Positions 36,985-39,383 of a stretch of 64,000 nucleotides of DNA are shown here, in pieces. Made by a program: the position numbers and the translations under genes. The first letter of the stretch is position 1. Each line of letters starts with the position of its first letter. The stretch is from Allomuricauda ruestringensis DSM 13258 (GTDB taxonomy: Bacteria > Bacteroidota > Bacteroidia > Flavobacteriales > Flavobacteriaceae), in contig NC_015945.1 in NCBI RefSeq assembly GCF_000224085.1, forward strand, positions 3,340,501 through 3,404,500, read 5' to 3'. The notes under the pieces were generated by a model, which saw only the letters and a list, made by a program, of their open reading frames with translations, had not been told where the DNA came from and ran no database searches.

Positions 36985-37623
36985 ATGGCAACTTTACGAT
37001 TGGGAGATACTGCTCCGGACTTTACTGCAGTTACTTCGGAAGGAACACTTAATTTTTATGAATACCTTGGTGATAGTTGGGGGATTCTATTTTCTCACCC
37101 TGCTGACTTTACTCCTGTTTGTACCACCGAACTGGGTACTGCTGCCAAGTTTAAGGATGAGTTCGACAAAAGAAACGTAAAGATGATGGCATTGAGTGTT
37201 GACGGGGCCGCATCTCACATGGAATGGATCAAGGACATCAACGAGACCCAAAATACCAAGGTCAACTTTCCTATAGTTGCCGATGTGGAAAGAAAGGTTT
37301 CCGATCTTTACGATATGATTCACCCCAATGCGGACGATACACTTACTGTACGATCAGTGTTTATTGTGGGTCCCGATAAAAAAATCAAACTTACATTAAC
37401 ATATCCTGCCTCGACCGGACGTAATTTTTACGAATTGTTGCGCGTAGTGGATTCTTTGCAATTAACGGCAAACCATAAAGTGGCTACTCCGGCAAACTGG
37501 AAAAATGGGGAAAAAGTCGTGGTAAGTCCATCTATACCTACCGAAGAGGCCAAAGGAATTTTTACCAAAGGTGTGGAAGAAATTAAGCCATACCTGCGTT
37601 TGACGCCTGATCCAACCACATAA
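36985..37623 (+). CDS. 1-Cys peroxiredoxin (Prx6-like)
   Basis: A 212-residue peroxidase. The peroxidatic Cys lies in LFSHPADFTPVCTTELG, and the Prx6-type C-terminal domain (about 165-212, ANWKNGEKVVVSPSIPTEEA) is present. No resolving Cys is apparent, which fits the 1-Cys subgroup. It detoxifies hydroperoxides in the cytoplasm with an external thiol donor. The gene has its own -7 element and is followed by the cold-shock gene after 85 bases. Confidence 0.94.
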   Translation: MATLRLGDTAPDFTAVTSEGTLNFYEYLGDSWGILFSHPADFTPVCTTELGTAAKFKDEFDKRNVKMMALSVDGAASHMEWIKDINETQNTKVNFPIVADVERKVSDLYDMIHPNADDTLTVRSVFIVGPDKKIKLTLTYPASTGRNFYELLRVVDSLQLTANHKVATPANWKNGEKVVVSPSIPTEEAKGIFTKGVEEIKPYLRLTPDPTT

Positions 37624-37708: not shown

Positions 37709-37903
37709 ATGAGTAAAGGAACAGTAAAATTCTTCAATGATTCTAAAGGTTATGGATTTATCACTGAAGATGGTTCAAACACAGATCACTTCGTACACAT
37801 TTCTGGTTTAATCGATGAAATTAGAGAAGGTGACGTTGTAGAATTCGAACTACAACAAGGTAAAAAAGGATTAAACGCCGTTAATGTACAAGTTGCGGAT
37901 TAA
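37709..37903 (+). CDS. Cold-shock domain protein
   Basis: A 64-residue single-domain OB-fold RNA chaperone. RNP1 is KGYGFI and RNP2 is HFVHIS; the rest (GTVKFFNDSKGYGF, EFELQQGKKGLNAVNV) is typical of CspA-family proteins. It binds single-stranded RNA in the cytoplasm. A terminator follows directly, and two tandem micropeptide genes lie beyond it. Confidence 0.96.
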   Translation: MSKGTVKFFNDSKGYGFITEDGSNTDHFVHISGLIDEIREGDVVEFELQQGKKGLNAVNVQVAD

Positions 37904-37933
37904 GTTATAACATACTTTTTTATAGAGACAAAG

Positions 37934-37959
37934 CCTGGGCAGTGCCCGGGTTTTTTTTT
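37934..37959 (+). terminator. Terminator of the cold-shock gene
   Basis: Stem CCTGGGC / GCCCGGG (one G-T pair) with loop AGT, followed by nine T. Confidence 0.9.
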
Positions 37960-38050
37960 GCAATTTTTTTTGAATCTCACGCAACCATTTATTTTTTTAC
38001 TATCTAAGCTATAAACACACTGTTCCCCATAACCATTAAATCCAATATAA

Positions 38051-38137
38051 ATGAACACTTTTTTTGGAGTACTCTCGTTCCTTTTAATCGTAAATGCCCT
38101 GCTGTTGTTGTGGAGTGTAAACGGTTCCCAAAAGTAA
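38051..38137 (+). CDS. Micropeptide 1, 28-residue hydrophobic protein
   Basis: A 28-codon frame beginning MNTFFGVLSFLLIVNALL and ending WSVNGSQK. It is essentially a single membrane helix flanked by a short polar start and a polar VNGSQK tail. It is paralogous to the next frame: both start M-x-TFF, have a Leu-rich centre with Asn in the helix, and end with SVN plus a basic or polar tail. No family is known to me. It follows the cold-shock terminator by about 90 bases, so it needs its own promoter or readthrough. Duplication with retained pattern is the evidence that it is real. Confidence 0.6.
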   Translation: MNTFFGVLSFLLIVNALLLLWSVNGSQK

Positions 38138-38209
38138 CTTAAAAAGGTTTTTAGGCAATAGGTAGGGTTTTTTACCGTTGGATTGTTACGTAATAAACAC
38201 GTTACAACC

Positions 38210-38293
38210 ATGACCACTTTTTTCAGCATTCTAATTTCATTACTTGCCCTTAATCTTTGTTTGCTTTTATTGAGTGTAAATAGGGCCAAATAA
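38210..38293 (+). CDS. Micropeptide 2, 27-residue hydrophobic protein
   Basis: A 27-codon frame beginning MTTFFSILISLLALNLCL and ending LSVNRAK. It parallels the preceding frame position by position (TFF, Leu-rich helix with Asn, SVN near the end). The DNA upstream of the two starts also shares elements (ATAAACAC, GTT, ACC before ATG), which suggests a tandem duplication that included the ribosome-binding region. The stop codon overlaps the left arm of the MITE-like element. A single-pass inner-membrane micropeptide is predicted. Confidence 0.6.
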   Translation: MTTFFSILISLLALNLCLLLLSVNRAK

Positions 38294-38431
38294 AAGAGGT
38301 TGTCTAAAATGTCGATTTTCGTCAACCTGAACTTGATTCAGGTTCTCATAGTGATTTGTTTATCAGTATGATGAGATTCTGAAATAAATTCAGAATGACG
38401 TGTTTCAATACTTTTTAGACAACCTCTTTTA
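38291..38431. repeat. MITE-like inverted-repeat element, copy 2
   Basis: A 141-bp element with perfect 19-bp inverted repeats (38291-38309 and 38413-38431; TAAAAGAGGTTGTCTAAAA). In reverse complement it aligns along its whole length with the element at 14061-14209. Where copy 1 has C-G in the outer stem (GAGGCTGTC/GACAGCCTC), this copy has T-A (GAGGTTGTC/GACAACCTC), a compensated change. It lies between convergent genes, as does copy 1, and may terminate both. Confidence 0.85.
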
Positions 38432-38450
38432 TATATTCTTGTGAATTTTG

Positions 38451-39383
38451 TTATTTCATGTTCACCAGTTCCACATCAAAAATAAGTGTTGCGTTCGGAG
38501 GAATAACCCCTCCTGCGCCTGTGCTTCCGTAAGCCAAATGGGATGGAATTACAAAACGGGCCTTGTCACCTACCTGCAATAGGCTAATTCCTTCGTCCCA
38601 ACCCGGGATTACCTGTCCAATACCCAAAACAAAATCAATGGGTTGGTTTCTTTTATAGGAGGAGTCAAAAATTTGTCCGTTGGTCAATGCACCTTCATAA
38701 TGAACGGAAACGGTTTTACCTTTTTCAGCTTTGGCACCACTTCCCTTTTGAATCATTTTATAACGCAGCCCACTATCGGTCTTGTCAAACCCAGCGGCCA
38801 ATTTTTCCATTTCTGCCTCTGCGGCAGCTTTTTGTTCGGCAATCCGCTTTTCCCTGGCTCCTTCAAAAACCCTGAAGGCTTCTATGGCATTCCAGTTTTT
38901 GGCTTCATCTCCAACCCTAACAATTTCTAAAGTTTCAATAGCATCGCCTTGAGCAATGGAATCCACAATATCCTGGCCTTCTTGTACACGACCAAATATA
39001 GTATGTTTGTTATCTAACCAAGGGGTAGCCACGTGCGTAATAAAAAACTGGCTTCCATTGGTGCCGGGTCCGGCATTGGCCATGGATAATACTCCTGGAC
39101 CATCGTGTACCAGATCGGGGTGGAACTCATCATCAAACTTATAACCTGGGTCTCCAGTTCCGGTTCCGGTTGGGCACCCGCCTTGGATCATAAAATCGGC
39201 GATTACCCTATGAAATTTTAGCCCGTCATAATATGGTTTGCCCTGTGGTCTTACACTGTTTTCCATATTTCCTTCGGCCAATGCAACAAAGTTGCCAACA
39301 GTTCCCGGTGTTTTATCGTGGGTAAGTTTTACCAGTATTTCCCCTTTGGTAGTATTAAATTTTGCGTAGATTCCGTCTTGCAT
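38451..39383 (-). CDS. Cyclophilin-FKBP fusion peptidyl-prolyl isomerase
   Basis: A 310-residue dual-family immunophilin. The cyclophilin domain (about 1-165) shows [35 protein letters not shown] and HTIFGRV. An Ala/Glu-rich helical linker (about 170-205) joins it to an FKBP domain (about 205-310) with [28 protein letters not shown] and [10 protein letters not shown]...[13 protein letters not shown]. No signal peptide is seen, so it is likely cytoplasmic. Such fusions are known only from a limited set of organisms including some flavobacteria and protists. It has its own promoter at 39439-39468. Confidence 0.95.

Follow-up and report, generated by a model that had tools for sequence, protein, structure and literature searches.

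Two paralogous membrane micropeptides of Flavobacteriaceae, predicted outputs of two different ECF sigma systems

In Gram-negative bacteria, MgrB and TisB are examples of small membrane proteins whose production is regulated. TisB, together with Ldr and Fst, also represents the type I toxins, a class similar in size and hydrophobicity to the peptides described here, and CydX and KdpF are small accessory subunits of membrane complexes. MicroProteins, mainly soluble eukaryotic factors, are titrating short paralogs which keep the interaction domain only. A further regulated small membrane protein, HokB, appears in the accessible text of PMC10470546. ECF sigma/anti-sigma systems described in Bacteroidota include FecI-FecR, EcfO and Das/Dma (PMC13088901, PMC12596196, available portions). 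For Flavobacterium psychrophilum, the part played by the seven ECF factors in the only ECF-type motif found is described as undetermined (PMC9723704), and flavobacterial ECF sigma targets are, in general, poorly mapped.

Here we describe two adjacent micropeptide genes, pep1 and pep2, located in a window of 64,000 nucleotides of Allomuricauda ruestringensis DSM 13258. The pair is real, unnamed and spread over part of the Flavobacteriaceae. A literature search, with most subscription papers outside its scope, returned no title or abstract opening on these peptides and no micropeptide among flavobacterial ECF sigma targets. The locus supplies two ECF-type promoter elements, with a sigma/anti-sigma locus linked to each of them, and its conserved micropeptide output is accessible to deletion in a single step.

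The micropeptide pair and its locus

The genome containing the window has a size of 3.84 Mb, and its nearest named relatives are Muricauda, Allomuricauda and Flagellimonas. Genes for a peroxiredoxin, a cold-shock protein (csp), pep1 and pep2 follow each other on the plus strand and are met by a convergent FKBP-type gene. The features of the locus are as follows:

36985..37623, plus strand: 1-Cys-type peroxiredoxin gene, a syntenic neighbour (Pfam AhpC-TSA and 1-cysPrx_C; NCBIfam PRK13189 over cut-off)
37709..37903, plus strand: csp, cold-shock domain gene, a synteny neighbour (Pfam CSD, E 7e-19)
37928..37959, plus strand: intrinsic terminator of csp, a GC stem and a T run (fold and genus alignment)
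37979..38006, plus strand: motif A, predicted ECF-type promoter of pep1, ACGCAACC-N15-ATCTA
38051..38137, plus strand: pep1, single-pass membrane micropeptide of 28 residues, MNTFFGVLSFLLIVNALLLLWSVNGSQK
38162..38188, plus strand: motif B, predicted ECF-type promoter of pep2, GTAGGGTnTT-N-TTGTTA
38210..38293, plus strand: pep2, single-pass membrane micropeptide of 27 residues and paralog of pep1, MTTFFSILISLLALNLCLLLLSVNRAK
38292..38432, no strand assigned: long inverted-repeat element directly 3' of the pep2 stop, with ends GAGGTTGTCTAAAA and TTTTAGACAACCTC
38451..39383, minus strand: FKBP-type peptidylprolyl isomerase gene (assigned by eye), a convergent neighbour used as the anchor for synteny

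The two adjacent paralogous frames reported in the initial annotation are present at the coordinates listed above, and 14 of 28 columns of their alignment are identical. The pattern M..F[FL]..L..LL..N..LL..[SN] is matched by pep1 and pep2 alone among the 553 short ATG-started frames of the window (both strands, nested starts counted). Both frames are free of frameshifts in all 20 aligned genus loci, which were drawn from 24 genus genomes searched; in one locus (L016) the pep1 stop is lost and the frame extends by eight residues. In G003, G004, G005 and G023 this DNA search matched csp or pieces only, and the first three of these genomes were found to have the peptides by other searches. A DNA search of 39 genomes, the window's own included, gave a match in 33, in several of them at csp alone.

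The pooled pN/pS values are 0.126/0.713 for pep1 and 0.164/0.767 for pep2, so that synonymous change lies far above replacement change, as expected for frames under purifying selection. In a six-frame comparison, the annotated frame alone combines the absence of stops with high residue identity (0.81 for pep1 and 0.74 for pep2); one antisense frame is likewise stop-free, with lower identities of 0.60 and 0.52. These substitution patterns show that pep1 and pep2 are under protein-level selection. The conservation proposed as a check of the initial annotation was thus found both within the genus and in other loci of the family, and its view of a duplicated single-pass membrane micropeptide, easily overlooked by gene callers, is supported. 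No family of the Pfam, NCBIfam, PHROGs or PADLOC profiles matches either peptide, nor does any PDB sequence. Rfam has no family at gathering score over the region; an RNA element was rejected because there were only sub-gathering scores, the best of them being long-hairpin matches to the inverted repeat.

As for the upstream sequence said to be shared by the two genes, ATAAACAC does precede both ATGs, but out of register (32 versus 9 nt from the ATG), and it was rejected as a common promoter on these grounds. It is not the strongest conserved upstream signal, and the conserved blocks differ between pep1 and pep2. A role as leader peptide (attenuator) was likewise rejected, because the gene after pep2 (FKBP) is convergent and there is no co-directional downstream target.

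The inverted repeat has a predicted fold of -58.7 kcal/mol (38290-38435; z -9.48) and at least 40 further matching places in the genome (40 of 94 candidates scored), and in the other 19 aligned genus loci it is replaced by a short terminator-like hairpin. Because of these two observations, the repeat, whose position had been considered suggestive, is not part of the system; a functional role was rejected for a sequence repeated genome-wide, and this mobile repeat is incidental to the micropeptide pair. It may nevertheless terminate pep2 transcripts in the window genome.

Using the FKBP gene as an anchor, we collected 80 named Flavobacteriaceae loci, 36 of which have at least one peptide copy and 19 at least two; the 44 peptide-free loci include at least one, L172, that has only 281 bases on the peptide side. 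The FKBP protein is 75-85% identical next to the peptides in family loci where it was found. Peptide-bearing loci include those of Flagellimonas/Muricauda, Cellulophaga, Arenibacter, Maribacter, Zobellia, Croceitalea, Eudoraea and Pricia. No peptide was found at that place in Flavobacterium-named loci, with the single exception of ASW18X, or in those of Lacinutrix, Aequorivita or Dokdonia. With a profile built from the two copies, we obtained matches at E 0.01 in 122 of 299 family genomes, weak ones and those to the third paralog (see below) counted, and at E 1e-4 the sole match among 198 genomes of the class was the window's own genome, the class sample holding some family genomes that were themselves without a match. 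The family, class and genus samples all include the window's own genome. In one family genome, a possible third tandem copy (MITFLIVFAILIVLNIALIKFSS...) was seen 3' of pep2 (L058:2019).

The csp gene is present in 27 of the 36 named loci with peptides and in none of the 44 without (L153-L232); by the strict pattern used, the other 9 peptide loci have no csp. Judging by this distribution, csp and the peptides form one synteny block. The peroxiredoxin gene adjoins csp in a number of Flavobacteriaceae loci as well. The association with csp may reflect either shared ancestry or a functional link.

Two promoter-like motifs and their sigma loci

In the genus alignment, motifs A and B constitute the two prominent noncoding blocks besides terminators. 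Motif A (ACGCAACC-N15/16-ATCTA) ends 44 nt 5' of pep1, and its ATCTA form has two exact sites in the genome, compared with none in the reversed control. The second site lies just downstream of recA, where a small lipoprotein gene and then an ECF sigma gene follow it. This operon (L089:1501-3029) encodes the lipoprotein, the ECF sigma factor and a protein with one hydrophobic segment, which matched no Pfam or NCBIfam model; from its position and the hydrophobic segment, we infer that it is an anti-sigma factor. Strict motif A (TCTA/TCTG end, full CGCAAC) was found in 7 of the 30 best sigma loci out of 167 family genomes with a match. After the pattern had been relaxed to GCAAC-N16-19-TCT in view of this result, it was found in all 30, at 487-711 nt 5' of the sigma gene and, in most cases, 43-51 nt 5' of the lipoprotein ATG, against a mononucleotide-shuffle expectation of 1.1. 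An element common to pep1 and the sigma operon is thus seen at 30/30 loci in its relaxed form and at 7/30 in its strict form.

Across 40 genus genomes, the loose form of motif A is not enriched (135 sites versus 207 in the reversed control), and it is only the fixed spacing and the contexts that stand out: 90 of the 135 sites have exactly N15/16 before ATCTA, compared with 9 ATCTA sites over all other allowed spacings. Reading of 31 motif A loci yielded 29 strict sites in 24 of them, all in three contexts, namely, pep1 (11 sites), the lipoprotein-sigma operon (12) and trhO (6, two of them by geometry only); the remaining seven loci have no site under the stricter spacing. The trhO gene (tRNA uridine hydroxylase) is divergent from recA, on its far side, and motif A stands before it with a leader of about 200 nt (L089, about 360-386 on the minus strand; L097, L099, L118); in the window genome this site reads ATCTT.

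Motif B (GTAGGGTnTT-N-TTGTTA) ends 21 nt 5' of pep2 and has three sites in the genome, compared with one in the reversed control. One of these starts about 50 nt before a fecR anti-sigma gene and has an ECF sigma gene on its other side. The third site (L092), within another frame, appears to be a chance match and was set aside. The 30 best fecR loci of the family were taken from 125 genomes with a match; motif B is present in 29 of them and begins 48-51 nt 5' of fecR (shuffle expectation 0.1), so that pep2, too, has an element in common with sigma/anti-sigma genes. A stricter form gave 33 sites in 40 genus genomes versus 8 in the reversed control. When 32 motif B sites were read, 13 stood before pep2, 13 before fecR, five before genes for secreted proteins or lipoproteins (L129, L132, L133, L150 and L151, in genus genomes) and one before no listed gene. 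The motif B regulon may therefore be wider than pep2 and fecR, and the motif could be readable by several sigma factors.

The two motifs are divided between the two genes. Among 55 peptides from the 36 named loci, 24 are preceded by motif A only, 26 by motif B only, none by both and five by neither, as judged by the patterns used; in loci with both motifs the order is A then B in 14 cases and B then A in none. By the same patterns, the spacing is 17 or 18 in 22 of 24 motif A elements and 16 in 24 of 26 motif B elements. Since each motif is common to a micropeptide and a sigma/anti-sigma locus, pep1 and pep2 are predicted to be targets, and hence outputs, of two distinct ECF sigma systems. The assignment of a sigma factor to each motif is suggested by position. 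Genomes G088, G142, G144 and G229 have the sigma genes but gave no micropeptide at E 0.01. The stress role speculated upon initially gains indirect support from the ECF-type promoter elements.

Beyond the genus, A- and B-type peptides do not fall into clearly distinct clades: the values for genus peptides against those of other genera are 0.501 (A-A), 0.465 (B-B), 0.480 (A-B) and 0.475 (B-A).

The conserved helix face and a 59-residue paralog

Each peptide has a single hydrophobic helix of membrane length, with a KD19 maximum of 2.35 for pep1 and 2.56 for pep2. In 76 non-redundant peptides (from 99 unique ones, of which 21 were pattern-chosen, N15 and some Leu-type positions being required), conservation is periodic with a peak at 101 degrees per residue, and none of 5000 permutations was as strong. 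When the analysis was repeated on 54 peptides, without the pattern-chosen set and omitting one short peptide (L175), the best angle was 102 degrees, again with 0/5000 permutations, and the face had 4.15 bits versus 2.61 elsewhere. Of these 54 peptides, 53 have F4, 49 have L8, all 54 have L11 and N15, and 53 each have L18 and S22. The 4-3-4-3-4 spacing of F4, L8, L11, N15, L18 and S22 places the conserved positions on one face of the helix. An Asn on a face of this kind drives the association of helices and is typical of oligomerising or docking membrane helices. From residue 23 onward there are on average 2.4 K/R and almost no acids; by the positive-inside rule, the C-terminus is predicted to be cytoplasmic.

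A third paralog is encoded in the same genome. It has 59 residues, with the same helix followed by a long tail (MTVFFSILFVLLVINAILLVFSVNGAKERF...EYKEAV), and its gene (L069:8271-8447) is preceded by one for a two-helix protein of 62 residues (L069:7964-8149) and followed by crcB. Sixteen such loci, corresponding to 13 genomes, were examined: the two-helix gene adjoins the third paralog in 13/13, and crcB is directly 3' of it in 10/13, the exceptions being G068 (more than 1 kb away), G115 (truncated by the sequence end) and G234 (not seen). By eye, the upstream DNA contains an ordinary TAnnTTTG-like element. Residues F4, L8, L11, N15, L18, S22 and N24 are invariant in both alignments, that of the micropeptides and that of the 59-residue paralog. 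In a structure model of the latter, residues 2-24 form a helix (pLDDT 91-92 over residues 1-20) and the tail, which usually ends in YKKAV/I, is of low confidence. The micropeptides thus have the helix in common with the longer paralog and are missing its tail, the helix being the presumed interaction element.

By a strict hand count, the third paralog is present in 28 of 29 micropeptide-bearing family genomes, the exception being G196; the rows were copied by hand at stricter cut-offs, and two omissions, G256 and a second place in G158, leave this count unchanged. Another 27 genomes have the third paralog and no micropeptide at that cut, a set that includes weaker micropeptide-like matches (e.g. 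G056, G113, G220, G227, G284). In 26 genomes both loci are on one contig, 14-20 kb apart in 22 of them; in the window genome, the distance is about 3 Mb in contig coordinates. Taken together, the shared residues, co-occurrence and proximity of the loci suggest that the micropeptides arose from the third paralog, or with it. They may also act on it.

Proposed mechanism, alternatives and comparison with known systems

Based on the sequence comparisons above, pep1 and pep2 are probably translated single-helix inner-membrane micropeptides and outputs of two ECF sigma systems. The membrane anti-sigma factor of either system would free its sigma factor upon an envelope or nutrient signal, and the matching micropeptide would then be made from a short mRNA and enter the inner membrane, its K/R-rich end facing the cytoplasm. 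It would act through helix-helix packing via the face F4-L8-L11-N15-L18-S22. Because the same face is kept under different promoters, the two peptides might feed one membrane target from two stress inputs, the likeliest target, which is a guess, being the 59-residue paralog with the same face. In its specific form, which we put forward tentatively, this would be a two-input membrane microProtein switch: pep1 and pep2 would hetero-oligomerise with the 59-residue paralog via the Asn-centred face, removing or replacing its cytoplasmic tail in a membrane complex, so that two envelope signals would converge on one target. Paralogs under two sigma factors would provide a clear example from nature of two stress signals that have one membrane effector in common.

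Alternatively, each micropeptide might damp the response by binding either the anti-sigma factor of its own system or the intramembrane protease by which anti-sigma factors are cleaved, much as MgrB reportedly damps PhoQ. This arrangement would agree with the sharing of each promoter element with the cognate sigma/anti-sigma genes, and an RseP-like protease could connect both systems: according to the available part of PMC10470546, RseA and FecR are both cleaved by E. coli RseP, for which small membrane proteins are a further target of degradation. However, the predicted topology, with the C-terminus inside, is opposite to the N-in/C-out orientation usual for RseP substrates (PMC10470546, same part), and the sigma genes also occur without the peptides. 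We regard feedback as rather unlikely. Similarly doubtful is the possibility that the micropeptides are accessory subunits of a larger membrane complex, made when the sigma factors call for it. The conserved Asn-containing face would suit such a role, as would the position of the third paralog directly before crcB in 10 of 13 genomes, but no obvious complex genes adjoin pep1 and pep2, whose neighbours are csp, peroxiredoxin and FKBP, and in the other three genomes crcB is distant, cut off or not seen.

The initial annotation also raised a type I toxin-like peptide, which would be induced by stress and lower the membrane potential. Size and hydrophobicity fit this class, and the ECF-type promoter elements would be compatible with induction. 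However, a minus-strand promoter of the type scanned, TTTG-N-TAnnTTTG, is absent from the 20 genus regions, and by eye there is no conserved block besides promoters, frames and terminators. The locus and gene order are fixed across genera, selection acts on particular residues, and PADLOC gave no match. The toxin hypothesis thus remains speculation, and a poor candidate in our estimate.

Still less probable is a cold-shock unit, in which the peptides would be made or needed together with the Csp protein. The tie to the cold-shock gene proposed at the outset is weakly supported: it holds as far as the distribution of csp goes (27/36 versus 0/44), but common ancestry of the loci can account for the association. 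The csp terminator has a predicted fold of -17.8 kcal/mol over 37925-37965 (z -3.06) with a stem kept across the genus alignment, and beyond it the peptides have promoter-like blocks of their own. With this terminator in between and csp missing by the strict pattern from 9 of 36 peptide loci, a cold-shock operon was ranked low, though retained among the alternatives, and the cold-shock gene is probably incidental to the micropeptides. Finally, a regulatory RNA with incidental frames, for which the short predicted transcripts with terminators could speak, is hardly credible given the codon-pattern substitutions, the frames intact in 20/20 aligned loci and the lack of an Rfam family at gathering score.

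Compared with described systems, pep1 and pep2 resemble MgrB, TisB and HokB in being short single-pass membrane proteins under stress regulation, the latter predicted in our case. They differ in that they match no family or PDB sequence, form two paralogs under two ECF-type elements and are accompanied by a third, tail-bearing paralog with an ordinary-looking promoter. With FecI-FecR, EcfO and Das/Dma, the proposed systems share an ECF sigma factor paired with a membrane anti-sigma factor. Neither a micropeptide target nor a GTAGGG or ACGCAACC element is mentioned in the available portions of PMC13088901 and PMC12596196; TGTT near the -10 position of a non-canonical Bacteroides thetaiotaomicron promoter, described in the accessible text of PMC12596196, agrees with the TGTT of motif B. 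SM6 of F. psychrophilum, a member of the same family, is also an ECF-type promoter class, but its -10 element is a CGT box, whereas motif A ends in ATCTA and motif B in TGTTA, and the main text of that paper has no occurrence of GTAGGG or GCAAC (PMC9723704). Unlike MicroProteins, pep1 and pep2 are predicted membrane helices, and their hetero-oligomer with the 59-residue paralog is putative; like MicroProteins, they are short paralogs having the presumed interaction helix of a longer, tail-bearing paralog.
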